25,645 nucleotides of DNA from positions 1-25,645 of IMG/VR virus record IMGVR_UViG_3300045747_000498; one strand, written 5' to 3'. Every line of letters starts with the position of its first letter. Within the stretch, counting starts at the first letter, position 1. A program made the position numbers and the translations under genes. Positions 7,384 through 25,644 of this stretch are shown piece after piece. The notes under the pieces are model-generated. The model had not been told where the DNA came from. It searched no databases and saw only the letters and a list, made by a program, of their open reading frames with translations. The stretch comes from a virus.

Positions 7384-9144
7384 ATGGCTGAGAACACAAC
7401 CCCACCCGGTATCTTCGAGCTTGTCAGCCAGCCCGGCGTCAAGCGCGATGGCACGGACTTCGACAGTATCTTCTGGCAAGACGCACAGTGGGTGCGGTTC
7501 CAGCGCGGGCGTCCGCGCAAGATCGGCGGGTACCGCGAGCTGAGCGACCAGCTCTACGGGCCCGTCCGCGGCGTCTACGTCGACTCAAGAAGCAGCGGAT
7601 CCTCGATCCACACGTTCTCGCAATGGGGCGTCGAAAAGCTGTCTATTGACTCGACAGGCACGCCGACCACGCTCGACGTTCGCACGCCAGTTGGCTTCAG
7701 CGGGCTGATCGACTACGCGTGGCAGACCGCCTCGATGTTTCAATCCGGTGGCGCAGGCACGCCGACCTTGGTCGCCTCGGCGACGCCTGACCTGACAGAT
7801 CTGGCATCTGACACGTCCGGGTCCATCTACCAAGGCGACGTCACAGGCTTGGCGCTGATGACGGCCGTGTCAGACGGCGCGCCGATCGTCACCAGCGGCG
7901 GGTGCTGCGTGCTGCAGCCCTTCCTTTTTGTGTACGGAAGCAACGGCCTGATCCGCAACAGCAACCCGAACGACATCTCGGCCGCTTCAGGCTGGACGAC
8001 GGGCGGAGCAAACAAGGCGTCGACCGCCAACGTCGCCGGCAGCAAGATCGTCAAGGGCCTCGCGATGCGCGGTGGCGGTCAGTCACCAGCGGGCCTCTTC
8101 TGGGCGCTCGATGCTCTCATCCGAGTGACTTACGTCGGCGGTACCACGTTGTGGAACTACGATACGCTCTCAGATGACGTGAGTGTGCTCTCCAAGTCTG
8201 GTATCGTTGAGTACGACAACGCCTACTACTGGGTCGGCGTCGATCGGTTCTACGTCTACAACGGATTGGTCCAAGAGCTGCCGAACCAGATGAACCTCAA
8301 CTGGTTCTTTGACAACATCAACTTCGCCAACCGACAGAAGGTTTGGGCCACCAAGGTGACGAGGTTCGGTGAAATCTGGTGGTTCTTCCCGTTCGGCGAG
8401 TCGACCGAGTGCAACGCGGCGGTCATCTTCAACCTTCGTGAGAAGACTTGGTACGATGCGAGGTTGCTGAGGACCGCCGGGTCACCGGCAAAGACATATC
8501 CACGGCCCATCTTTGCCGGCTCGGGCGCTACGACCACCGCACTGCCATACACGCCGACCGCCGGCATGTTTCACTTCGGTGAGACCGTCACGGGCAGTGT
8601 CAGTCTCGCGACCGGCGTCGTGCAGAAAGCCGCGCCCACCCAGTTGAATTTGATCAACGTGGTCGGAACCTTCACCAGCGGCGAGACCATTGACGATGGT
8701 GTCGGGTCGACCGGAACGACAACCGCTGCGCCATTCAGCCAGCCGCTTTCTCGGCTGTGGGACCACGAGACTGGGGTCGACGAGGTCTCGCGGTCGGGCG
8801 TGACGGCCGTCGAGAGCTACATCGAGAGCAGCAATGTTTCTTGGGTCGCTGGGTCGCCCACCTCGAATGCGCAGCAAGGCTACAACTTCCAGATGCGGGT
8901 GCTCAGATTTGAGCCCGACTTCGTGATGGCCGGCAACATGACGATGACTGTGCGCGGCCGCGCTTACGCGCAGTCGAGCATCGTCGACAGCGAAGTCTTC
9001 ACAATCACCCCCACCACGGAGTTTGTGGACTTGAGAGAGCAGCGCAGGCTTGCGTCCATCAAGCTTGAAAGCAATGTGGTCGGTGGAAACTTCCAGATGG
9101 GTCGTAGTTTGCTGACGGCTGAGCCTGGTGACGAGCGAGGTTAG
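7384..9144 (+). CDS. Tail nozzle protein, P22 gp10 / stabilisation-protein-like
   Basis: A 586-residue protein with the usual nozzle opening: GVKRDGTDFDSIFWQDAQWVRF and RGRPRKIGGYREL (about residues 15-55). It continues with a propeller-like series of Trp/Tyr/Gly motifs (LFWALDALIRVTYVGG, VEYDNAYYWVGVDRFYVYNG, WWFFPFGESTECNAAVIFN). Residues about 395-450 hold two copies of a GET-x-x-G motif (FGETVTGSVS, SGETIDDGVG), an embedded small beta domain seen in many phage proteins. The C-terminus has strand-rich FEPDFVMAGNMTMTVRGRAY. Such proteins close the tail tube and retain packaged DNA. A GTG at 7381 is an alternative start; I prefer the adjacent ATG. Confidence 0.75.
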   Translation: MAENTTPPGIFELVSQPGVKRDGTDFDSIFWQDAQWVRFQRGRPRKIGGYRELSDQLYGPVRGVYVDSRSSGSSIHTFSQWGVEKLSIDSTGTPTTLDVRTPVGFSGLIDYAWQTASMFQSGGAGTPTLVASATPDLTDLASDTSGSIYQGDVTGLALMTAVSDGAPIVTSGGCCVLQPFLFVYGSNGLIRNSNPNDISAASGWTTGGANKASTANVAGSKIVKGLAMRGGGQSPAGLFWALDALIRVTYVGGTTLWNYDTLSDDVSVLSKSGIVEYDNAYYWVGVDRFYVYNGLVQELPNQMNLNWFFDNINFANRQKVWATKVTRFGEIWWFFPFGESTECNAAVIFNLREKTWYDARLLRTAGSPAKTYPRPIFAGSGATTTALPYTPTAGMFHFGETVTGSVSLATGVVQKAAPTQLNLINVVGTFTSGETIDDGVGSTGTTTAAPFSQPLSRLWDHETGVDEVSRSGVTAVESYIESSNVSWVAGSPTSNAQQGYNFQMRVLRFEPDFVMAGNMTMTVRGRAYAQSSIVDSEVFTITPTTEFVDLREQRRLASIKLESNVVGGNFQMGRSLLTAEPGDERG

Positions 9145-9146
9145 CG

Positions 9147-11432
9147 ATGTCAGTCAGCCATCTGAAAAGCAATATCATCGGCGACTTCACTGGTACGGTG
9201 ACGGTCTTCAACTCCGCGGGCGCCACCCAGACAGCAAACGCGACAGACCTGGTCAGGCCGACCGACTGGAACAGCGCGCATGCTCAGCTGCTGACGCTCT
9301 CAGGAAACACGGCGGGGTCCTCAAACTTCTCCGGCACCAACATCGTCTGGGCCGGCGGCAGCAACGTGACGCTGTCAGGCGCGACGGCCGCAGGCGCAGC
9401 TACGGTGTCGATCATCGCGGCAGCAGGCGGTGGCGCGGCAGGCACCAACACGCTTGGCGCCAGCAACCTCGGCAACACCGCGGGTACGTCGGGCGTCATC
9501 ACTGGTACTGCGCTGCAGCTCGTCTTTGCCGGCGGCAACAACATCACGTTGAGTCAGTCAGTCAACGCAGCGTCGGCGACCATCACGATCTCTGGCCCGA
9601 ACACCATCGCGCAAAGCGTCCAGACGCAGGCCAGCGGCAACATCGCTGGCGTCGGGTTCTCCAGCGCTACGACAGCCGGCGCCGCCTTGGTCGGTACGCT
9701 CAACAGCGCAGGGCTCAGTGTCGGCGTACCGGCGTGGCTCACCACCGCAGCCCAGTCGAACCACTCGCACAACTTGGCCACGACGACCACAAACGGGTCG
9801 GTGGCGGTCGTAGCGACAGCCAACAGCGCAGGTGCGACCGTGGCGTTTCCGCCGTGGATCACGACCTATGCTGCGCAAAGCGTCCAGACGCAGGCCAGCG
9901 GCAACATCGCTGGCGTCGGCACTACGTTCGCTGGCACGAACGTCACAGCCACGGTCGGCTTGAACAGCGCGGGACTCGCCTTGAGCTTGTCCGCGGGCGG
10001 CGGCGGCGGCGCCGCCGCTGACGGCGTCAACATCCTGCAGGCCGGCACGGTGGGGACGACCGGGACGACGTTCTCGGCCTCAACCGGCACGGTGTTCTTG
10101 AACGGCTCCAACAACATCACCATCAGCCAAAACGCCAGCAATCAGCTTGTCGTCAGCGGCCCGACCCTCACACAGTACCTCACCACGGCTCAGCCTGTGG
10201 GAGCCTACCTGACGACGGCGCGCGCCAGCAACGATGCCATCGGGCTGAATACGGCACTGACAGCCAACGGCCTGAGCGTGACCGCCAACAGCAGCGGCCT
10301 GAGCATCAACGTGCCGGCCTGGCTGACCACGGCGGCGCTATCGAACCACTCGCACAACTTCGCGACCACGACGACGAATGGCTCAGTGGCCGTGGTCGCA
10401 ACAACCAACAGCGCTGGCGCGACTGTCGCCATGCCGCCATGGATCACGACCTACGCCGCGCAGACCAACCAGACCGTCGCATCGGGCAACATCGCAGGAG
10501 TCGGTACTACCTTCGCAGGGACCAACATCACCGCTACGGTCGGCCTGAACAGCGCAGGCCTCGCCCTGAGTCTGTCTGGCGGTGGTGGCGGTACCATCAA
10601 TCAGACCGGGCCGAACATCGCAGTCGCCGGCAGCACGGTGACCAGCGGCGACGTCTACTTCTCCAACAGCCCGACCGTGACATTCGGCATGGCCGGTTCG
10701 ACCATCACGGCAAGCGCTGCGGGCGGTGGCGGCGGTGCGGCAACTGTCGGCGGGTGGGAGCCATTCCCGCCCCTTGGTGGCAACACCGCATTCAGCACTG
10801 GCGGCCTCGGCACGATCTATTTCCAGAAGATTATCCCGCAGGCAAACATCAGTTTCAACAATATCGAACGCCGTATATCCGGCTCGACGGTCTCAAGTGC
10901 GATCAGCGCTCAGGCCGCGCACACCATCAGCTACGGTCTGTACTCGCTGGGCACTGGCGCGAGCACGTCGATCTACAACCTGATCGCGTCATCGAGCATG
11001 TTCTTTCAGGCGAGCTATTCCAGCAACCTGAGCGCCGGCCACACGATCAGTCAGGGCGCCGGTAGCTACACGGCGTCTAGCGCTGGCACAGTCGGGCAGG
11101 GCAACCTGACGGGCTTCAAGCACTGCTATTTCCCGTTTACCAGCACGTTGACCGCAGGTGGCCTCTATGCGGTTGGCATGGTCATGAGTTCTGCCACGAC
11201 CGGCGCGACCGGGCCGCTGCGCCTTGGCCTGATGGAACTGTCGGTCATCAACAACCTTACGGTCGGCAAGCTGTACGCCAGCACCGTGCTTGCGACCGCG
11301 GCGAGCTTCGTCGGCGACTACGCTCAAGGCGTCTACTCGTCGTCGTCGAACGGGCTTCCTGCTACACTGGCCATCAGCGGCCTCACCAACGCAGTGAGCC
11401 AACAGCGCATGTATCTCCAGTTTGAGGTTTGA
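9147..11432 (+). CDS. Long repetitive tail fibre protein
   Basis: A 761-residue protein with three parts. The N-terminus (about 1-60) carries ATDLVRPTDWNSAHAQLLTL, a motif typical of phage fibre attachment domains. The shaft (about 60-530) is Thr/Ser/Ala/Gly/Asn-rich and built from repeats: WLTTAA-SNHSHN-ATTTTNGSVAVVAT occurs at residue 197 and again at 392, each followed by TYAAQ, SGNIAGVGTTFAG and LNSAGLALSLS, then a poly-Gly hinge. The C-terminal domain (about 535-761, from VGGWEPFPPLGG) is non-repetitive with aromatic residues and probably forms the receptor-binding tip. HSHN may bind metal in the trimer core, as in other fibres. It is followed by a glycosyltransferase gene. Confidence 0.75.
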   Translation: MSVSHLKSNIIGDFTGTVTVFNSAGATQTANATDLVRPTDWNSAHAQLLTLSGNTAGSSNFSGTNIVWAGGSNVTLSGATAAGAATVSIIAAAGGGAAGTNTLGASNLGNTAGTSGVITGTALQLVFAGGNNITLSQSVNAASATITISGPNTIAQSVQTQASGNIAGVGFSSATTAGAALVGTLNSAGLSVGVPAWLTTAAQSNHSHNLATTTTNGSVAVVATANSAGATVAFPPWITTYAAQSVQTQASGNIAGVGTTFAGTNVTATVGLNSAGLALSLSAGGGGGAAADGVNILQAGTVGTTGTTFSASTGTVFLNGSNNITISQNASNQLVVSGPTLTQYLTTAQPVGAYLTTARASNDAIGLNTALTANGLSVTANSSGLSINVPAWLTTAALSNHSHNFATTTTNGSVAVVATTNSAGATVAMPPWITTYAAQTNQTVASGNIAGVGTTFAGTNITATVGLNSAGLALSLSGGGGGTINQTGPNIAVAGSTVTSGDVYFSNSPTVTFGMAGSTITASAAGGGGGAATVGGWEPFPPLGGNTAFSTGGLGTIYFQKIIPQANISFNNIERRISGSTVSSAISAQAAHTISYGLYSLGTGASTSIYNLIASSSMFFQASYSSNLSAGHTISQGAGSYTASSAGTVGQGNLTGFKHCYFPFTSTLTAGGLYAVGMVMSSATTGATGPLRLGLMELSVINNLTVGKLYASTVLATAASFVGDYAQGVYSSSSNGLPATLAISGLTNAVSQQRMYLQFEV
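9609..9919 (+). repeat. 47-bp exact direct repeat in the tail fibre gene
   Basis: Bases 9609-9655 and 9873-9919 are identical over 47 bases, starting GCGCAAAGCGTCCAGACG, and are offset by 264 bases (88 codons, so in frame). They encode AQSVQTQASGNIAGVG twice. A third, diverged copy of the same protein motif lies near 10459-10503. The repeats could let the fibre shaft lengthen or shorten by recombination. Confidence 0.85.
9735..10592 (+). repeat. Duplicated ~90-residue fibre module with recoded DNA
   Basis: Residues about 197-288 (9735-10010) and 392-483 (10320-10592) of the fibre protein are nearly the same at protein level, but their DNA differs at many synonymous positions. The offset is 195 codons. 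This indicates an old duplication kept by selection on the protein, in contrast to the exact 47-bp repeat nearby. Confidence 0.8.
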
Positions 11433-11435
11433 CAG

Positions 11436-12158
11436 ATGCAACCACAGATCATCAGCGGATTCGACCCAGGCAGGCACAACGCCGACCTGAGCGCCACGGT
11501 CTCAAGGCTCGAGCGCGCCGCGGCGTACAAGGACCTCTCGACCGTGGTGATCGTCCCGGCCTTCGGCTCGATCCCGACTCGGGCTGTCGCCTCGTGGTTG
11601 AACATGTTCAATCCGCCTAACCAAAAGCTCGTGCGTCTGTTTGCCATCGGCATGGAGGTCGGCGACGCCTACAGCCGCACGATCGAGTCGATCCTGGCAC
11701 ACCCCGAGCTCAGCAAGTTCAAGTACATCTTGACGTTGGAGCACGACAACATGCCTCCGCCCGATGGGCTGGTGAACCTGCTGGCCTCCATGGAGGCGCA
11801 CCCTGAGTACGCGTGCATCGGCGGCCTCTACTTCACCAAGGGCGAAGGCGGTCAGCCGCAAATCTGGGGAAACCCGAACGAGCACCCGACCAACTTTAAG
11901 CCGTGCCCGCCCGACCCGACCGGCGGGCTCGTCGAGTGCTGCGGCACAGGCATGGGCTTCAACGTGTTCCGTACCGACATGTTCAAGGATGAGCGTCTGC
12001 GGCGTCCTTGGTTTCGGTCGGTCGCGTCGGCAGCTGAAGGCGTCGGGACCCAAGACCTCTACTTCTGGGCCGACGCGCGCAAGCACGGCTACCGGTGCGC
12101 CATCGACTGCAGCGTGAAAGTCGGCCACTACGATCTGACCAACGACATCATCTGGTGA
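11436..12158 (+). CDS. Glycosyltransferase, GT-A type
   Basis: A 240-residue protein with GT-A glycosyltransferase features. A Rossmann-like start (LSTVVIVPAFG, residues 35-44) leads to an acidic metal-binding motif LEHDN (101-105) at the end of a strand (KYILT), then ACIGGLYF (127-133), a GTGMGFNVFR segment (170-179), QDLYFWADARKHGY (206-219; the position of the usual catalytic acid) and a late VGHYD (229-233). These families transfer a sugar from a nucleotide-sugar donor to an acceptor. It starts three bases after the tail fibre stop and is followed by a methyltransferase, so it may modify a virion protein, the host surface glycan or phage DNA. The acceptor is unknown. Confidence 0.75.
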   Translation: MQPQIISGFDPGRHNADLSATVSRLERAAAYKDLSTVVIVPAFGSIPTRAVASWLNMFNPPNQKLVRLFAIGMEVGDAYSRTIESILAHPELSKFKYILTLEHDNMPPPDGLVNLLASMEAHPEYACIGGLYFTKGEGGQPQIWGNPNEHPTNFKPCPPDPTGGLVECCGTGMGFNVFRTDMFKDERLRRPWFRSVASAAEGVGTQDLYFWADARKHGYRCAIDCSVKVGHYDLTNDIIW

Positions 12159-12162
12159 TCAA

Positions 12163-12729
12163 ATGAGAGCTACCAAACTCGCGACCAAGCCCACTCGGAT
12201 CCAAGGCAAAGAGCTGAAGCTCGACCTGGGCTGCGGCGACAACAAGGCGCAGGGGTTCCTCGGCGTCGACAAGTTTGCCACGTCATCGACCGACTACACA
12301 TTCGACCTGCTCAAGTTCCCTTGGCCGATCGACGACGGCGCGTGCGCGACACTTCACTGCAGCCACTTCTTCGAGCACATCCCCGGTCTCGAACGGCCAG
12401 CGTTCATGGAAGAGTGCTACCGCGTCTTGAAGAAGGGCGGACAGCTCGTCATCATCACCCCGTACTGGAGCAGCGCCCGCGCCGTCCAAGACTTCACGCA
12501 CGCCTGGCCGCCGGTTGTCGAGACGAGCTTCCTGTACTTCAACAAGCAGTGGCGCGAGCAGAACAAGCTGACCCACGGCTTGTACACCATGACCTGCGAC
12601 TTCGACTTCGGCTACGGGTACGCGCTTGATGCTGAGACGGCCACCAAGCACGTCGAAGCTCAGCAGATGCGGATCAAGAATTACCTGAACGCCGCGGCTG
12701 ACATCCACGTGACGCTCACGAAGCGATGA
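12163..12729 (+). CDS. SAM-dependent class I methyltransferase
   Basis: A 188-residue protein with a clear Rossmann-fold methyltransferase layout: motif I LDLGCG (20-25), the acidic residue after strand 2 (VDK, D36), SHFFEHI (67-73) and YRVLKKGGQLVIITP (86-100, motif III region). This resembles the small methyltransferases often found in polysaccharide-biosynthesis clusters. The C-terminal part (about 101-188, with QDFTHAWPPVVETSFLYFN) should select the substrate. It starts four bases after the glycosyltransferase stop, which suggests the two act on the same product, for example methylating a transferred sugar. DNA or protein substrates cannot be excluded. Confidence 0.8.
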   Translation: MRATKLATKPTRIQGKELKLDLGCGDNKAQGFLGVDKFATSSTDYTFDLLKFPWPIDDGACATLHCSHFFEHIPGLERPAFMEECYRVLKKGGQLVIITPYWSSARAVQDFTHAWPPVVETSFLYFNKQWREQNKLTHGLYTMTCDFDFGYGYALDAETATKHVEAQQMRIKNYLNAAADIHVTLTKR

Positions 12730-12733
12730 TTGT

Positions 12734-13111
12734 GTGTTCCAGCAGTCGTCGTTCCAGGTCAACAGCTTCCAGCTGGGCGCCCCTGAGGCGGCGCCTGTCT
12801 ATTGGCCGTTCCAAAGCGACGCGTTCCAGTTCTACGGGTCGGCAAGCAGCGCGCCGACCGGGTTCGACCTTACCGACGGACTGCTGGTCCCAGACCCACG
12901 GTCGCTGCCTTGGGCATCGTGGGCTGGCGCTGTCACGGTAAATTTTTCAAGGTATAATCTGCCAAACTCTGTGGATGAGAGTTTGTGGCAAGTTTGGGCA
13001 ACTGAGCTATTCGCCATCCCCGGACTTGTTGAACAGGGTCTGCCAGACCCTAGAGCGTTCAACAGTGACTGGCGTGGGTGGGGCGTGGCTCTCATACTGG
13101 CCATGCAATGA
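12734..13111 (+). CDS. Small protein with FQ repeats, probable virion component
   Basis: A 125-residue protein starting at a GTG, four bases after the methyltransferase stop. No ATG lies in this frame near the start; the ATG at 12726 is in another frame and overlaps the upstream gene. The N-terminus has spaced FQ motifs (MFQQSSFQVNSFQ, PFQSDAFQ), a pattern seen in small phage proteins of unknown function. The C-terminal half contains SLWQVWATELFAIPGL and AFNSDWRGWG, likely amphipathic helices. A strong promoter-like element lies inside it. Its stop overlaps the next start as ATGA. I recognise no function. Confidence 0.6.
   Translation: MFQQSSFQVNSFQLGAPEAAPVYWPFQSDAFQFYGSASSAPTGFDLTDGLLVPDPRSLPWASWAGAVTVNFSRYNLPNSVDESLWQVWATELFAIPGLVEQGLPDPRAFNSDWRGWGVALILAMQ
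12930..12985 (+). promoter_or_regulatory. Candidate promoter P2 with 5' hairpin
   Basis: CTGTCA (12930-12935) and a perfect TATAAT (12953-12958) are separated by 17 bases, inside an AT-rich island of GC-rich coding DNA. CAAACTCT (12963-12970) pairs exactly with AGAGTTTG (12978-12985) across a 7-base loop, which would put a hairpin at the RNA 5' end. The 13 bases 12946-12958 match candidate P1 at 11 of 13 positions. It would drive the internal-virion genes starting at 13108. Confidence 0.55.
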
Positions 13112-14736
13112 CCTCTCCACTCAGCGCAGTTCAGCAGCAGCTTGACCGCCTTCGCAACGCGACGGGCGACATCAAAGTGCAGCAGCGAATGATGCCGCAG
13201 GGCCGATTTGACCTCAGCGGGATCCCTGGTCTTGATGGTGCGCTCCCGATGTACTGGAAGGCTCTGTCTGGGACGAACCTCGGGGAGATTCTTCCGATGC
13301 CCGCCACTCCGGTCCCGGACGCCGGCGTAGGGGCGACGTCCCCTGATGCGGTGGGCGCTGGTGCGGGGGTCGGCTCAAGCCCTGGCGGCGACGGTGGGAT
13401 CAGCGGCGACTCCGGCGCTTCGGCGCCAAGTGGCATCGGCGCACCGGGGTCAGCCACGGGCGGAGTCACTCCGGGCATGGCGCTTGGCTTGGTTGGCGCA
13501 ATCGCCAACTCCAACCCAATCAGCGCCTTGGTCTCGATCGCGCAGATGATCAATGCGCCACCTGTCACCATGGCTACCGTCAGCCAGGCGACCCCTCCGC
13601 TGTCGCCGCCGCTCGACCCCATCTCGTCGTTTGTCCCGCCGGTCGACGCGGTGTCTGACGCGCCCGGCATGCCGTCGATCGGCGAGGCACCAGCCCCTGT
13701 GGGTTTGACGCCTTCTGTCAGCATGACAATCAGTCCGGATTCTGAGGACGCGGTGTCTGTCACGCCTAACACTCCGAACGACACGGCAATCACGCCGAGC
13801 GAAGACGCAACGCCGGTAGCACCCGACGCTCCGCCGAGTGAAGGCGACTCCGCCGCCGCCGCTGCAGCCGCAGCCGCAGCCGCAGCCGCAGCCGCAGCAA
13901 TCGGTCCCCCAGCGCCTGGTGACGACGCGTCTGCACCTCCGGGCGACGCTCCCGGGGATGGTCCTGGCGCAGCTCCTGGTGCTGCGGCGGCCGCTGCAGC
14001 TGCTTCAGGCGCTGCTGGAGCTGCGGCAGCGGCCGCTGCAGCTGCTTCGCCTTCAGGCGACGGTGACGGATCTGCTGCCGCCGCGCCTTCAGGCGATGGC
14101 GGCATAGGCGTCGGTGTTGGCGACGGATCAGGCGACGCTCCCGGTGACGGCGGCATAGGCGTCGGTGTTGGTGACGGTGGCATAGGCGTCGGCGACGGTG
14201 GCATAGGCGTCGGCGACGGTGGCATAGGCGTCGGCGACGGGTCGGGCATCGGCGACGGCGGCATAGGCGTAGGTGATGGTGGCGACGGCGGCATAGGCGT
14301 AGGTGATGGTGGCGACGGCGGTGGCGGAGGTGGCGGAGGTGGCGGAGGTGGCGGTGGCTGCTTCTTGACGACCGCGGTCATGAAGTCGCACGGCAAGGAC
14401 GACGACTCGCTCGAGCTCGAACTGATGCGCGGCTTCCGAGACCATTACATGATGCAGCACCCTGAGCTTGCCGACCTAGTGCACCACTACTACAACCTTG
14501 CCCCGAAGGTCGTTGCGGGCCTCGACGCGCACCCGGACGCTGACTCGATCTATAGCCACCTTCGTGAGAAGTTCATCGAGCCAGGGCTCCGGCACGTCTT
14601 GGCCGACCGCCCAGAGCACGCGCTCAAGACCTATGCCGACATGCTCAAGTTCGTCGGCCCAATCGCCGACAGCGCGGCCGGCGACTTGCTGGGCGCCGGA
14701 GGCCACGCGGTCAGCAACATGTTCAAAGGACTCTAA
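13108..14736 (+). CDS. Low-complexity virion-region protein with CFI-box-like C-terminal domain
   Basis: A 542-residue protein started at the ATG at 13108, which overlaps the previous stop (ATGA); an upstream in-frame GTG at 13078 is less likely. Residues about 1-60 are a charged helical start (SPLSAVQQQLDRLRNATGD). Residues about 60-400 are Pro/Ala/Gly/Asp low complexity with poly-Ala runs and repeated GIGVGDG units. A poly-Gly hinge (about 404-417) leads to C418 of CFLTTA and a folded helical domain (418-542: LELELMRGFRDHYM, LADLVHHYYNLAPKVV, GLRHVLADRPEHALKTY). The Gly-run followed by CF(I/L)xTA resembles the CFI-box C-terminal domain of bacterial and phage proteins; the function is unknown. 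A virion or ejection role is inferred from its neighbours. Confidence 0.65.
   Translation: MTSPLSAVQQQLDRLRNATGDIKVQQRMMPQGRFDLSGIPGLDGALPMYWKALSGTNLGEILPMPATPVPDAGVGATSPDAVGAGAGVGSSPGGDGGISGDSGASAPSGIGAPGSATGGVTPGMALGLVGAIANSNPISALVSIAQMINAPPVTMATVSQATPPLSPPLDPISSFVPPVDAVSDAPGMPSIGEAPAPVGLTPSVSMTISPDSEDAVSVTPNTPNDTAITPSEDATPVAPDAPPSEGDSAAAAAAAAAAAAAAAAIGPPAPGDDASAPPGDAPGDGPGAAPGAAAAAAAASGAAGAAAAAAAAASPSGDGDGSAAAAPSGDGGIGVGVGDGSGDAPGDGGIGVGVGDGGIGVGDGGIGVGDGGIGVGDGSGIGDGGIGVGDGGDGGIGVGDGGDGGGGGGGGGGGGGGCFLTTAVMKSHGKDDDSLELELMRGFRDHYMMQHPELADLVHHYYNLAPKVVAGLDAHPDADSIYSHLREKFIEPGLRHVLADRPEHALKTYADMLKFVGPIADSAAGDLLGAGGHAVSNMFKGL
13862..14048 (+). repeat. Poly-Ala coding repeats (GCAGCC tract and 20-bp duplication)
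   Basis: A (GCAGCC)n tract at about 13864-13898 encodes poly-Ala. Bases 13987-14006 and 14029-14048 are an exact 20-bp direct repeat, GCGGCCGCTGCAGCTGCTTC, 42 bases apart and in frame. These are simple-sequence expansions inside the low-complexity linker. Confidence 0.7.
14098..14358 (+). repeat. Minisatellite array coding GIGVGDG and poly-Gly
   Basis: Three tandem 21-bp units (14179-14199, 14200-14220, 14221-14241; the first two identical, the third differing at its last base) encode GIGVGDG. An exact 30-bp tandem pair follows at 14251-14280 and 14281-14310. A run of 9-bp Gly units (about 14312-14358) leads to the CFI-like domain. All units are multiples of three, so slippage would keep the frame. 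Confidence 0.85.
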
Positions 14737-21669: not shown

Positions 21670-21823
21670 AGGCCGAGACCTCCTCAGGGGTCAAAAGCGC
21701 GGCGCCGCACCGAGCGCAGAAGTCCCCGACCCACGCCGTGCGCCCGTCAGTCTGCTCCTCAAACCGAGGCGCGACCAGTCCGTGGCCGAAGAGCCAGCAG
21801 CGTAGCTTTACATGGAGCCTCAC
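21590..21823 (-). CDS. Small zinc-binding DUF1660-like protein
   Basis: A 77-residue protein read from a GTG at 21823 that overlaps the dCMP deaminase stop in GTGA; in-frame starts further upstream lie inside the deaminase gene. It has the DUF1660-like pattern: a basic, aromatic start with CWLFGHG (C9, H14) and a later CARCG (C36, C39), forming a likely zinc site, then an acidic helix (TPEEVSAFTEERVRRLG) and an Arg/Pro tail. Function unknown for the family. It ends inside the convergent virion gene with 80 bases of overlap, and the tail after about residue 63 is the part lying over that gene. Confidence 0.6.
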   Translation of the reverse strand: MRLHVKLRCWLFGHGLVAPRFEEQTDGRTAWVGDFCARCGAALLTPEEVSAFTEERVRRLGIQDRGTDSPDPRRTRP

Positions 21824-22305
21824 AGTCGTGGCTCCATCTGGTCCCATTGCCGACCGGCTGACACCCACCACTCTTTGGCCTCGCTGTGGGCATAGGCCTC
21901 GGCGAAGACGATCCGCTCGCACGAGGTGTTCAGCAGCAGCTTGATGCACGTCACGCACGGGCTAGCCGTGACGTAGCACGTCTCGATCTGCCATGGGTCG
22001 CGGCACTGCAGCAACGCGTTCTGCTCGGCGTGGATGGCTTGGCAGGCGTCGAGGCCTTGGCCGCTGGGCGCCGACGCACCGGCGCAGGCGTTGGGCGTCG
22101 TGTAGTCGCCACCGAACATGATGCCAACGTTTGTCACCAGTTCGTTGCAGTGCGGCCGGCCCGCAGCCACGCCGTTGTAGCCCGTTGCCAGTAGGTGCCC
22201 ACGCGCGTTGAGCAGCACGCAGCCCACGCAGCGCCGCAGGCACGTCGCGCGCTTGGCGGTCAGCTGCGCAACGCCGAGCGCCCACTCGTCTCTTGAAGGT
22301 CTCAT
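21820..22305 (-). CDS. dcd: Deoxycytidylate (dCMP) deaminase
   Basis: A 161-residue zinc deaminase that converts dCMP to dUMP. The catalytic motif HAEQNAL (H92, E94) and SPCVTC (C117, C120) bind zinc and provide the proton-shuttle Glu. TGYNG (41-45) is the nucleotide-binding loop. The insertion with extra Cys/His between the two (C53, C74, C88) resembles the second zinc/allosteric site of phage T4-type dCMP deaminases, which are activated by dCTP-type effectors. AGGAGA precedes the ATG at 22305. It shares its stop region with the DUF1660-like gene. A dyad-rich gap upstream could hold its own promoter. The gene symbol is by function only; the name cd is used in T4. Confidence 0.9.
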   Translation of the reverse strand: MRPSRDEWALGVAQLTAKRATCLRRCVGCVLLNARGHLLATGYNGVAAGRPHCNELVTNVGIMFGGDYTTPNACAGASAPSGQGLDACQAIHAEQNALLQCRDPWQIETCYVTASPCVTCIKLLLNTSCERIVFAEAYAHSEAKEWWVSAGRQWDQMEPRL

Positions 22306-22320
22306 GAGAATCTCCTGTAG

Positions 22321-22357
22321 CGTCTATTGTACAACAGACGCCGTCTGATGATGTCAA
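22321..22357 (-). promoter_or_regulatory. Dyad-rich candidate promoter/operator upstream of dCMP deaminase
   Basis: On the minus strand TTGACA (22357-22352) overlaps the stop of the TS-fold gene and TACAAT (22331-22326) follows, with a 20-base spacer, longer than ideal. Two inverted repeats overlap here: a 20-base palindrome with one mismatched pair (22321-22340) and the perfect CAGACG-c-CGTCTG dyad (22335-22347). Three CGTCT-type half-sites thus alternate in direction, like an operator. An attenuator hairpin is an alternative. Confidence 0.4.
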
Positions 22358-23193
22358 TCAGCCTTGGGTTCCCACCAACGCAGCTCGTGGCCCGGCGACG
22401 TGTCGCGCAGCTCGCGAAGCGTCTCCATCAGTTTGTGTTCCCTCATCCACAGGTCTGCGGGTGTCGCAACAGCTGGCAGAAGCACACTGCTCTTGTCATT
22501 GAGGCTTTCGATCGCCTTCGACCACTCGGGCTCATAGAGGTGGCTCGATGCAGCCGTCAGGTGCAAGACGCCCGGCGCCGTGATGCCGATCGGCAGACTT
22601 TCAGGGTGAGTTGCGTTGGCGACGGCCGCAGCCTCGTTGAGCCGACAGCAGATCAAGTGAGCGACCATGCTGAAGCTGAAGACGTCATACGGCCAACCGA
22701 GCCACAAGTCGTTCGATCGCATGAAGACGTGCGCGTGAAGTTTGTTGTGCCGCTTCCTGAAGACCATGGCGACCGTGCACGGCGTGTCCTTTGTCGGCGG
22801 CGGGTTGGGTCGCCAGATCGTCAGCGCGGCTTGGCGCGTCTCGCTGTCAGCCAAAAGCTTGCCCACCACGTAGTCGAGCTGGGACACGATCGGCGGCCCG
22901 TACGCCCCGAACAACGTCTGACCGTCATCGCTGAACTCGGCCATACGCTTGGCATACGGCTCGACACCGCTGAGCTGATTGCTGCCGCTGAGGATCCAAT
23001 AGGCCTCGGCCACCATGAAGCGGTAGCTGAGTGCGCGGACCCTCGACAACAGCACAGGCCTGCGCATGTCGATGTGGTCGGTGCGGTGTGCAACCTCAAG
23101 GGTTGGTTTACCTCGTGGCGCAACTTCGTCGCCGTCAAGTACGTCATTGATTGCGCTGCGCCATGCGGTGGTAGCTGTGTCAATTGCTTTCAT
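22354..23193 (-). CDS. Thymidylate synthase-fold enzyme, predicted dCMP-specific (hydroxymethylase-like)
   Basis: A 279-residue member of the thymidylate synthase / dCMP hydroxymethylase family, which adds a one-carbon unit from methylene-tetrahydrofolate to the pyrimidine C5. Visible equivalents of key residues are E63 and W66 (AEAYWIL), Y98, R120, catalytic C139 (TPC), R159-S160-x-D162 (MRSND), and H218 and Y220 (SHLY). The position that selects dUMP in thymidylate synthase, the Asn after LG-x-P-F, is D170 here (LGWPYD). The same exchange is seen in T4 dCMP hydroxymethylase, which also shares MRSND. I therefore infer dCMP as the substrate. The C-terminus lacks the usual hydrophobic end of ThyA. 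It overlaps the upstream kinase gene (ATGA). A plain thymidylate synthase remains possible. Confidence 0.8.
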   Translation of the reverse strand: MKAIDTATTAWRSAINDVLDGDEVAPRGKPTLEVAHRTDHIDMRRPVLLSRVRALSYRFMVAEAYWILSGSNQLSGVEPYAKRMAEFSDDGQTLFGAYGPPIVSQLDYVVGKLLADSETRQAALTIWRPNPPPTKDTPCTVAMVFRKRHNKLHAHVFMRSNDLWLGWPYDVFSFSMVAHLICCRLNEAAAVANATHPESLPIGITAPGVLHLTAASSHLYEPEWSKAIESLNDKSSVLLPAVATPADLWMREHKLMETLRELRDTSPGHELRWWEPKAD

Positions 23194-24092
23194 AGGAGCC
23201 TCTTGAGAACATCGAGCAGCACGTAGCGTGCTGGGTGGTTGATTCGCTTGTGAAGCCGAGGGTGGGGTACTTGTGCAGCAGCGTCGACCCCTTCAGCAGC
23301 GAGTCGCGCGAGCGCTGTCAGTCCTAATGCGACAACTGGCCGCTCGACACCGCGCAGCCAACCAAGATCATTGTCAGTGCTGACCCATAACAAGTGTCGT
23401 TCGTGGATGCCTTCAAGACGCAACTGCTCGGTCAACCAATGACTTGTGCTTTGGTCGTCGAGGTCGCCAAATGGCCATTGGTACGGGTGCGAACCCAGTT
23501 TCATACTGTCGCCCACCAACACGACCCTGCCGTCGAGGTTGCCCGCGCTGAGGACGTCGAGCCGGTGGGGCTGTAGGTAGGCCAAGCCGTCGGGCTCAAG
23601 GTCGGGTGTGCGCAGATCGTAGTCGGCGACCGGCAGCTGCGTGCGAGAGCGCAAGCCGTAGTAGTCAGTGTAGACTTGGTAGAGCTGCGCCGACGTCTTG
23701 AGGTACTCCTCGCCCTTGCGCTTGGCCCACGAGGCGCTGACGTGCTCCCAGCCGGGGTCGCAGAGCACCACGTGCGCGCCGCAGCGCATCGCCAGCCGCT
23801 CGAGCTGCAGTGTGATGATCGGGCCCAGTCGGTCGACACCGTCGCGGAACGCACGCCCGTAGATCGGCTCGCTCAGCCAGCTGCGGTCCAAGATCACGTG
23901 CTTCTCGCCAAGCAGCGCCGGCAACATCGAGTCGATGTAGCGGCCGGCCAGCTCGGCCGGGTCGGTGACCTCCTTGTAGGGTCCGTGATGCACAACCATC
24001 GCGCCGAGTTCCTTGGCCAGCTCCACGGCCAGCGTCGACTTGCCCGACCCGTCCGCGCCTTCGAGGATGAGGACTCGCTTGCAGTGAGTCAC
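23190..24092 (-). CDS. P-loop nucleotide kinase fused to a UDG-superfamily-like domain
   Basis: A 300-residue two-domain protein started at the GTG at 24092, which overlaps the previous stop in GTGA; the longer ORF start lacks support. Domain 1 (about 1-160) is a thymidylate-kinase-type P-loop enzyme: Walker A GADGSGKST (12-20), DRSWLSEPIYG (69-79) and a basic lid region (SWAKRKGEEY). It should phosphorylate a deoxynucleotide, or a base in DNA as known for some phage kinases. Domain 2 (about 187-300) looks like a uracil-DNA-glycosylase fold: VLVGDS (191-196), PFGDLDD (207-213), WVSTDN (236-241), RPVVALGLTALARL (251-264) and VPHPRLHKR (275-283), matching the late His-Pro motif. Whether domain 2 cuts bases is unknown. 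Confidence 0.75.
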   Translation of the reverse strand: MTHCKRVLILEGADGSGKSTLAVELAKELGAMVVHHGPYKEVTDPAELAGRYIDSMLPALLGEKHVILDRSWLSEPIYGRAFRDGVDRLGPIITLQLERLAMRCGAHVVLCDPGWEHVSASWAKRKGEEYLKTSAQLYQVYTDYYGLRSRTQLPVADYDLRTPDLEPDGLAYLQPHRLDVLSAGNLDGRVVLVGDSMKLGSHPYQWPFGDLDDQSTSHWLTEQLRLEGIHERHLLWVSTDNDLGWLRGVERPVVALGLTALARLAAEGVDAAAQVPHPRLHKRINHPARYVLLDVLKRLL

Positions 24093-24565
24093 GTCGGGTA
24101 CCCCTTGAAGGTCGTTGGGTCCCAGTCGCCCGTGGGTCCGACCCACTGCCGCTTGTCGTACCCGTACAGGCCGAGGATCACCTCGGTGCAGGGTCCCACC
24201 CAGCCCGGCGGCTTGATGACGTCGCGCGCTTGGCCCGGGCGCGTCTCCTTGGTGCCGGGCACCTTCCTCATGTTGGCGAGGTGGACGTCGGCGAAGAGTG
24301 GCGCCCAGGGCAAGCCCAGCTGTACGGCCGTGCCCTTGGCGAAGTAGACGAGGTCGATCAACGCGTCGGCCATCTTGGCCATGTCGTGGATCTCAACTGC
24401 TTCGGCGAACTCCTGCAGCTCTTCACGCATGAGCTCGAGCCGGTCGATGATCATCTTCGACGTCAGGTGCGTGGGTGTATCGTTCGTCATGATGTCGAAC
24501 TTGATCATGAAGCGGCGAATCGCCTCCGACTCGGCGTCAGGCGCCGTCGGAAATGGTATGTACAT
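24089..24565 (-). CDS. MazG-like nucleotide pyrophosphohydrolase
   Basis: A 158-residue all-alpha NTP-pyrophosphatase. The start at the ATG at 24565 is favoured by AGGAG directly upstream, overlapping the methyltransferase stop; the much longer open frame to 25081 lies antisense-like over the methyltransferase gene. The metal-binding helices show REELQEF (E48, E49, E52) and MADALIDLVYFAKG (D67, D71). The usual Glu three residues before the first Asp is replaced by K64. Then LGLPWAPLFADVHLANMRKV and KPPGWVGP follow, as in many phage members. The family cleaves (d)NTPs to NMP and PPi. In this locus a dCTP-clearing role is attractive but not shown. Confidence 0.8.
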   Translation of the reverse strand: MYIPFPTAPDAESEAIRRFMIKFDIMTNDTPTHLTSKMIIDRLELMREELQEFAEAVEIHDMAKMADALIDLVYFAKGTAVQLGLPWAPLFADVHLANMRKVPGTKETRPGQARDVIKPPGWVGPCTEVILGLYGYDKRQWVGPTGDWDPTTFKGYPT

Positions 24566-24573
24566 GTGAACTC

Positions 24574-25644
24574 CTAGGGTTGATTGTCTTGCAAGCGAAG
24601 CTTGCGCCGATTCCACGAGACGTCGGCCGAGGTCGCCTTCGACTCCGGGAACTCGGTTCGTATCGTAGCGAGAATCTCGTCGGTGGACTTGCCCTCGAGC
24701 AGCAGGACCCTCGTGCGATACCCGATGCCGAGGCGCGGCGTGCGTGGCCCCGTCGGTCCACCGCCAGTGCGTGGCGCGCGCTGCGCCTTGGGCTCTGGTA
24801 CGGTCGGTGCCCACTCCGGCGATACGGCCGTGTCGGCCCAGGGCTGGCGCCAAAGGAGCTCGGTAGACGGGTTCTCCGGGTCGCGCAGGTCGACGACTCG
24901 CGTCTCGATTATGCGGCGTAGCTTCCCGCTCGTTTCCAGGCCGTCCTTGACCGCAGTTGCGAGCCAGCGGCCGACCGGCGGCATGACCGCTCGGGCCAGC
25001 TCGCGCGTGGCGGCGTCGAACCCGCGCTCGGCGGTCTGCCAGTCGGGCGGAAGGCCGACCAAGGCGAGCCACTCGGCCCACGTGAGCATGCGCGGCTCAG
25101 TCGGGTGCAGGCGCGTGAAGGACGCCAGCATGACGGGCGCTGGCTGGTCGGGCCGCAGGCGCTGTGTGACAGCGAGCGGTGCGCCGCCGCCGTTGAGGCG
25201 CTTGACCTCGTGGGTCTCCATCGACTCGTACGCCGTGCGTAGTCGGCCTTTGTGGGCATCGGACCGTGCCCAGAGCTCCTTCCAGAAGGGGTTCAGATCT
25301 GGGGTAGCGATCTTGGACACGACACGCTTGGGCGCCTTCTTGAGCGCCTGCGCGACGGTCGTGGTCTTCGTCAGCTCCGGCCACACGAGTGGATACTGGT
25401 GGGCGATCAGGAACATGCGCTGCCGGCGCTGCGGCACGCCGAGATACTGGTTGTCCTGTAGCAGGATCGTGACCTGGTACCCTGCCTCGTTCCAACGCTT
25501 GGCTTGCTCGAGGACGAAATCGCGCCCGTGGCGCCATGCGTTCGTGACGGACTCCCAGCACCACGCCTTGGGGCGGATGATCAGCCCGGCCGTGACGAGC
25601 GACGTCACGCAGTCGAGGCGCTGGTCCTTCGACCAGTGCGCCAT
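24574..25644 (-). CDS. C5-cytosine DNA methyltransferase, C-terminal part (cut by window edge)
   Basis: At least 356 residues of a DNA (cytosine-5) methyltransferase. Visible motifs, counting from the last in-window ATG: WESV (30-33) at the position of the ENV motif, with Ser for Asn; GVPQRRQRMFLIA (69-81, QRR motif VIII); a target-recognition stretch (about 85-180); PRMLTWAEWLALVGLPPDW (184-202, motif IX) and AVMPPVGRWLATAV (219-232, motif X). The SAM site and catalytic PC motif would be further upstream, outside the window, so the gene is probably incomplete. A C-terminal extension (306-350: LLLEGKSTDEILATIRTEFP and VSWNRRKLR) looks like a small helical DNA-binding tail. It is eight bases from the MazG-like gene. 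Confidence 0.8.
   Translation of the reverse strand: MAHWSKDQRLDCVTSLVTAGLIIRPKAWCWESVTNAWRHGRDFVLEQAKRWNEAGYQVTILLQDNQYLGVPQRRQRMFLIAHQYPLVWPELTKTTTVAQALKKAPKRVVSKIATPDLNPFWKELWARSDAHKGRLRTAYESMETHEVKRLNGGGAPLAVTQRLRPDQPAPVMLASFTRLHPTEPRMLTWAEWLALVGLPPDWQTAERGFDAATRELARAVMPPVGRWLATAVKDGLETSGKLRRIIETRVVDLRDPENPSTELLWRQPWADTAVSPEWAPTVPEPKAQRAPRTGGGPTGPRTPRLGIGYRTRVLLLEGKSTDEILATIRTEFPESKATSADVSWNRRKLRLQDNQP

Follow-up and report, generated by a model that had tools for sequence, protein, structure and literature searches.

What could a nucleotide kinase and a uracil-DNA-glycosylase (UDG)-like domain have to do with each other, such that a phage encodes both in one open reading frame? The question is raised by a gene on the minus strand, at positions 23190-24092, of the window analysed here, i.e. 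the whole 25,645-base viral record IMGVR_UViG_3300045747_000498, which is classed as linear and may thus be a fragment. The gene is a single open frame of 300 codons; its start codon, preceded by AAGGGG, is the GTG at 24092, and its stop codon shares the sequence ATGA with the ATG start of a thymidylate-synthase-family gene that follows. The preliminary description of this locus had placed the gene at the correct coordinates without naming the strand, and the three motifs that it singled out, a Walker A (EGADGSGKST), DRSWLSEPIYG and VPHPRLHKR, are all found in the translation. The two-domain fusion of a nucleotide kinase and a UDG-like domain is genuine.

When viral contigs were searched with a single sequence, be it the whole protein or the C-terminal part, no relative came up; an alignment search of viral contigs found 224 stretches encoding one, the best 80 of which form the locus set used below. 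The window and 57 of these 80 loci make up a 58-row alignment (23 near-copies, kinase-only or cut genes were excluded), on which all pocket counts are based. The fusion gene, its parts and its neighbours are as follows:

23190..24092, minus strand: fusion gene, kinase domain (residues 1-171) plus UDG-like domain (174-300); open reading frame, translation, whole-protein model.
23580..24092, minus strand: thymidylate-kinase-like P-loop domain, residues 1-171; PHROG 761, fold compared with YorR and thymidylate kinases.
24033..24062, minus strand: Walker A, EGADGSGKST, residues 11-20; E11, D14, G17 and K18 in 58/58.
23868..23888, minus strand: DRSWLSE, residues 69-75; D69, R70 and E75 in 58/58.
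23193..23573, minus strand: UDG-like domain, residues 174-300; domain-family profile and predicted fold.
23508..23516, minus strand: motif 1, VGD, residues 193-195; D195 at the place of the acid in family-4 GE(x)PG, by HMMER alignment to 1ui0 and 1l9g.
23469..23474, minus strand: PF, residues 207-208; F208 aligned to the base-stacking Phe of family-4 UDG.
23379..23381, minus strand: S238 at the place of the base-reading Asn; Asn in 55/58 aligned members, Ser in the window copy.
23244..23264, minus strand: motif 3, HPRLHKR, residues 277-283; HPQxxKRF in relatives, H277 in 40/58, P in 17/58.
22354..23193, minus strand: thymidylate-synthase-family protein with dCMP-type Asp (PYDVF) and catalytic PCT; Pfam E 7.2e-15, residue alignment.
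21820..22305, minus strand: dCMP deaminase family; Pfam E 5.3e-18, PHROG 174 E 1.1e-33.
24089..24565, minus strand: PRA-PH/MazG-like NTP pyrophosphohydrolase (24092-24556 scanned, start taken from the open reading frame); Pfam E 4.6e-15, DR2231 E 5e-8 to 4e-7.

The N-terminal half had been described as dTMP-kinase-like, and this is borne out: Walker A, the DR motif and the fold of thymidylate-kinase-like P-loop kinases are all present. It matches PHROG 761 ('thymidylate kinase') at E 1.2e-16; Pfam gave weak P-loop matches only, and TIGR00041, the thymidylate kinase equivalog, was matched at E 4.5e-4 with 20 bits, i.e. well below its curated cut-off of 83.25. In the AlphaFold2 model of the whole protein (58-sequence alignment; pLDDT 94.5, pTM 0.92), the best fold match of this predicted domain is YorR (Z 16.4, 165 residues, 3.5 Å), with thymidylate kinases at Z of about 13-14. 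A relationship to T4 gp1 was rejected at the sequence level (E 48), and PHROG 139, the dNMP kinase family, was matched by one of the 58 aligned members.

What, then, is the C-terminal half? A structure search with the full-length model listed the kinase half only, and residues 174-300 were therefore modelled and searched alone. The preliminary description had made its UDG assignment depend on the predicted structure of this domain, and the AlphaFold2 model (pLDDT 89.1, pTM 0.83) does have a UDG fold. With this model, rows 1-36 of a Foldseek search against the PDB are all family-4 UDGs or UdgX (E 5e-5 to 1e-2), the first non-UDG row coming at E 0.06; VIA likewise gives family-4 UDGs and UdgX at Z 9.2-10.1 over 118-122 of the 127 residues, followed by 9qhs, a phage family-A polymerase (Z 8.7), SMUG2 (Z 8.4) and TDG (Z 7-7.6). 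A profile comparison with UDG families, which had been proposed alongside, gave a divided answer: a profile of the 58 C-terminal domains matched 27 family-4 UDG/UdgX chains of the PDB at E 4e-5 to 3e-4, the only significant matches (the next lies at E 0.41), but the C-terminal half of the window protein alone matched no Pfam family. Nor was a UDG found among the matches of a profile of 18 close members. Of the 58 full-length members, 13 match Pfam UDG with E values of 1 or lower, and the C-terminal parts of Bacillus phage G gp315 (50.6 bits, E 2.8e-13) and of locus L086 (29.5 bits, E 8.9e-7) lie above its cut-off of 24.3 bits. Because neither the window domain nor the 18-row profile leads to a UDG by sequence, the relation rests on the diverse family together with the predicted fold, and from these we assign residues 174-300, with high confidence, to a UDG fold whose nearest relatives are family 4 UDGs and UdgX.

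We nevertheless do not file this UDG-fold protein as a family 4 UDG, because it lacks several features of that family. None of the four cysteines expected there for the iron-sulphur cluster occurs in the C-terminal part of the window protein, its motif 1 reads VGDSM, with the acid present and the Pro of GE(x)PG absent, and S238 stands where family 4 has the Asn that reads uracil; the His-Pro of motif 3 is there, in HPR at 277-279. Across the 58 members, the motif-1 acid (D or E) is found in 53, the base-stacking Phe of PF in 56 and the base-reading Asn in all but three, whereas the motif-3 His of HP is replaced by Pro in a group of 17 that has lost both motif-3 His and Arg and retains acid, Phe and Asn. 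Acid, Phe, Asn, His and motif-3 Arg/Lys occur together in 33 members; the window copy has D, F, S, H and R. In Sulfolobus UDG, according to PMC11078745, the base stacks against F55 and is read at its Watson-Crick face by N82; Brig1, which acts on a cytosine derivative, has Tyr and Glu at these two places. By analogy, Asn at the base-reading place suggests a pocket for a uracil-type base rather than for cytosine.

Which nucleotide does the kinase half serve? In the window operon, the fusion gene is preceded by the PRA-PH/MazG-like pyrophosphohydrolase, whose nearest solved relatives are 3nl9 and DR2231, and, further upstream, by a C5-methyltransferase-like gene that is truncated where the contig ends; it is followed by the thymidylate-synthase-family gene and the dCMP deaminase. 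The synthase-family protein of the window has the catalytic Cys and an Asp that aligns with that of T4 gp42, a dCMP hydroxymethylase; it lacks the YGxxWRxW of true synthases, which suggests hydroxymethylation rather than methylation, and the product of 22354..23193 is probably a dCMP hydroxymethylase. According to PMC8670742 and PMC6400193, exchange of Asn177 for Asp switches such an enzyme from dUMP to dCMP, and Asp179 is the cytosine determinant in the T4 enzyme. BLAST found a synthase-family ORF in 76 of the 80 loci (best 80 of 224). At the place that corresponds to Asn177 of E. coli ThyA, where Asp specifies cytosine, every one of these 76 has Asp; the same residue is found in phage G gp319 and in DSL-LC01, whereas Asn stands there in the controls, M6 gp58 and Huwbert gp68. 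All but one of the 76 (75/76) lie on the strand of the kinase gene and start less than 400 bases downstream of it. The four loci without a BLAST match comprise two that end too soon (L058 and L076), one with an Asp-type gene recognised by eye (L072), and one, L078, with a SAM methyltransferase in place of the thymidylate-synthase-family gene. Two operon types recur, one running SAM methyltransferase, PRA-PH, fusion, synthase family, dCMP deaminase and the other polymerase, nuclease, helicase, a gene of ~298 aa, fusion, synthase family; the order PRA-PH, fusion, putative hydroxymethylase, deaminase is repeated in many loci. Given Asp-type neighbours in 76 of 76 cases and Asn in the controls, the kinase most likely phosphorylates 5-hydroxymethyl-dCMP, destined for cytosine-replaced DNA, and we regard it as highly probable that its step belongs to a modified-dCMP pathway. 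For T4, PMC6400193 gives the order dCTPase, dCMP hydroxymethylase, dNMP kinase, host NDK, polymerase. In line with such a pathway, PMC7504290 reports for phage AXL3, whose fusion is a full-length relative, that two of 37 restriction enzymes cut the DNA, both at A/T-only sites, that its authors proposed altered G/C nucleotides, and that the genome also encodes a DUF1643 protein, gp55.

Some of these loci hold further genes of interest. The ~298-aa gene (PHROG 14998) lies directly upstream of the fusion in L034 (3567-4478) and in 37 other loci; it has no Pfam match and may modify the hydroxymethyl group. The L072 gene (6860-7747), with Asp at position 177 in an otherwise canonical synthase (YGVQWREW), possibly encodes a dCMP methylase making 5-methyl-dCMP. 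Microbacterium phage Huwbert (L090) has two adjacent synthase-family genes at 7508-9153, the canonical gp68 with Asn and the divergent gp67 with Asp. The C5-cytosine methyltransferase-like gene of the window (24574-25644) occurs in a phage that probably substitutes cytosine at C5; the last 50 residues of its product resemble PHROG 17205, and this tail is weakly seen in 211-aa genes of related loci. Among the structural genes of the window lies a SAM methyltransferase-like gene (12163-12729; Methyltransf_11, E 2.2e-6), preceded by an ORF without a Pfam match that looks glycosyltransferase-like by eye (11436-12158); a 552-aa ORF at 13078-14736, with long Ala-rich stretches and GIGVGDGG repeats, has no Pfam match either.

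How widespread is the fusion, and does the kinase ever go without its partner? The fusion recurs in diverse phages. By tblastn, 115 phage records match, of which four, from three phages, reach 80% coverage of the query or more: AXL3 is represented by two records, PW916 and ctUtU524 by one each; the remaining listed rows cover the kinase part, and the fusions of Bacillus phage G and DSL-LC01 were found with more distant queries. The gene carries no annotation in PW916 and ctUtU524 and is called 'thymidylate kinase' or 'hypothetical protein' in AXL3; it is never annotated as a UDG in Pseudoxanthomonas PW916, Stenotrophomonas AXL3, ctUtU524, DSL-LC01 or Bacillus phage G, and our search of the open-licence literature found no published description of a phage nucleotide kinase-UDG fusion. 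A search with the 18-row alignment gave 35 viral loci, on contigs several of which had already appeared among the 224 stretches, and three loci in bacterial MAG records. All 36 complete frames carry the kinase P-loop (a variant one in L121), and no stand-alone copy of the close UDG-like clade was found among them; 34 of the 36 have both P-loop and Asp-type synthase, and in L125 the P-loop is present and no synthase was detected by pattern. Two further loci, beyond the 36, are cut at a contig edge. Kinase-only relatives do occur in L071, L074 and L077, where the operon is of the same type and the neighbouring synthase-family gene has Asp, and no second UDG-like gene was found within the fetched stretches of the kinase-only loci L004-L007, L071, L074, L077 and L090. 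In the kinase tree, which is rough, with several long branches and bootstrap values that have not settled, L074 nests with three fusions (support 99/91), which points to loss of the UDG-like domain. Because kinase-only relatives share the operon type and one of them sits among the fusions, the UDG-like domain appears to be useful to the kinase and yet dispensable.

The reading that we favour, with slightly less than even confidence, is that of a T4-like cytosine-replacement enzyme acting at the precursor level, in which a 5-hydroxymethyl-dCMP kinase is joined to a putative UDG-like half that checks for uracil-type bases. The PRA-PH/MazG-like pyrophosphatase would hold dCTP low, the Asp-type synthase-family enzyme would turn dCMP into 5-hydroxymethyl-dCMP, and the kinase half would convert this nucleotide, and perhaps also dTMP, into the diphosphate, in the manner of T4 gp1. 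Less certainly, the UDG-like half would recognise uracil-type bases (dU, 5-hydroxymethyl-dU), supplied by the adjacent dCMP deaminase or by spontaneous deamination, through its conserved pyrimidine pocket, and might either remove them, as nucleotides or in DNA, or gate the kinase; uracil-type bases would thereby be kept out of the cytosine-replaced genome. Several findings count against this proposal: the Pro of GE(x)PG is mostly gone, iron-sulphur cysteines are missing, kinase-only relatives occur, no homology of the kinase to T4 gp1 is detectable, and in L078 a SAM methyltransferase takes the place of the synthase-family gene. A bolder version, a widespread phage quality-control enzyme whose kinase commits 5-hydroxymethyl-dCMP to DNA and whose built-in UDG-fold editor destroys or blocks dU and 5-hydroxymethyl-dU nucleotides, seems to us unlikely; if true, a phage that replaces all its cytosine would avoid deamination mutations, and no other domain of UDG fold would so far be known to work at a nucleotide-kinase step or in connection with one.

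Need the UDG-like half be catalytic at all? It could instead be a binding, allosteric or docking domain in a kinase of the 5-hydroxymethylcytosine pathway, for instance one that senses the nucleotide or tethers the kinase at modified DNA or at the replisome, and to this we give appreciable weight, clearly short of an even chance. Seventeen of the 58 members have lost the His and Arg of motif 3 and still have acid, Phe and Asn, and in the window Ser replaces the base-reading Asn; both observations fit such a role and speak against one shared catalytic reaction; moreover, UDG-like domains also occur in family-A phage DNA polymerases, as seen in phiLo (9qhs, Z 8.7) and in BFVD rows for the polymerases of SP-15 and RHph_Y65, where docking or template reading would be plausible. 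On the other hand, the 33 members that keep acid, Phe, Asn, His and Arg/Lys preserve more than binding would seem to require. With the motif-3 His lost in one group and the Asn lost in the window, catalytic or gating editing and plain binding come out near even: we favour a domain that checks or edits uracil-type bases, with almost the same weight on one that only binds, so that both the guarding against deaminated bases and the binding-only role put forward in the preliminary description stay plausible.

Two further possibilities depart more strongly from the precursor-level editing that we prefer. The pocket might recognise 5-hydroxymethylcytosine itself, e.g. against the DNA of competing phages, much as the UDG-superfamily proteins Brig1 and Brig3 excise alpha-glucosyl-5-hydroxymethylcytosine and 5-hydroxymethylcytosine, respectively (PMC11078745 and PMC13160076). 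This is improbable: such a glycosylase would damage the phage's own presumed 5-hydroxymethylcytosine genome unless that carried a further modification, 55 of the 58 members read the base with Asn and not with the Glu reported for Brig1, and the fusion sits in a precursor-synthesis operon, not in a defence island. The other possibility operates on DNA, the kinase phosphorylating the hydroxymethyl group of bases that the UDG-like half flips out. Kinases of this kind exist in hypermodified phages, in a pathway that works on 5hmdU, and the UDG fold is a base-flipping fold. The kinase half is, however, of the thymidylate-kinase/YorR type, and its family profile reaches M6 gp54, which we take to be a 5-hydroxymethyl-dU DNA kinase, only at E 0.37; a DNA-level hydroxymethylpyrimidine kinase is disfavoured on this basis. 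The neighbouring synthase is of the dCMP type and not of the dUMP type, M6 gp58 having Asn, so that a precursor-level 5-hydroxymethylcytosine pathway fits better. The hint in the preliminary description at an in-DNA 5-hydroxymethylpyrimidine kinase is thus not sustained, and we consider the DNA-level reading very improbable.

The fusion ties the UDG fold, so far a matter of DNA repair and more recently of defence against phages, to modified-cytosine synthesis in phages, and the question of how cytosine-replacing phages exclude deaminated bases from their DNA is made testable. A kinase with a UDG-like part beside a dCMP-type synthase could serve as a sequence mark of phages likely to contain 5-hydroxymethylcytosine or its derivatives. 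The 'thymidylate kinases' of AXL3, phage G and DSL-LC01 have a second domain that their annotation omits, and their main substrate is probably a different one.

How does the fusion compare with systems already known? With family 4 UDGs and UdgX, the UDG-like half shares the predicted fold and the family-profile match; unlike family 4 UDGs, it has no iron-sulphur cysteines, has lost the Pro of GE(x)PG in most members and is fused to a kinase. YorR of Bacillus SPbeta (3kb2, 2axp), the best fold match of the kinase half, is without a UDG-like part, and so is T4 gp1, annotated as a dNMP kinase, whose role as a 5-hydroxymethyl-dCMP kinase would be the same even though no sequence relation is detectable. 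Structure libraries already contain phage polymerases with a fused UDG-like domain; in the phiLo family-A DNA polymerase, a phage DNA-synthesis enzyme likewise carries such a domain, the partner being a polymerase and not a kinase. Brig1 and Brig3 are tied to modified phage cytosine, as is proposed for the fusion, but they are bacterial, stand-alone and located in defence islands; by analogy, a link of the fusion to defence is possible. AXL3 gp29 and the PW916 fusion are full-length relatives, ~40% identical to the window protein and with the same neighbours, and they retain the base-reading Asn where the window has Ser. Bacillus phage G gp315, annotated as a thymidylate kinase, is distant in sequence, with AQNPGG as its motif 1, and shows the same architecture of a kinase with a C-terminal UDG. 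It shares a stretch of ~6 kb (L091, 3829-9565) with genes for a thymidylate-synthase-family protein of the Asp type, a dCMP deaminase and an alpha-glucosyltransferase, a setting which suggests that phage G DNA contains glucosylated 5-hydroxymethylcytosine.
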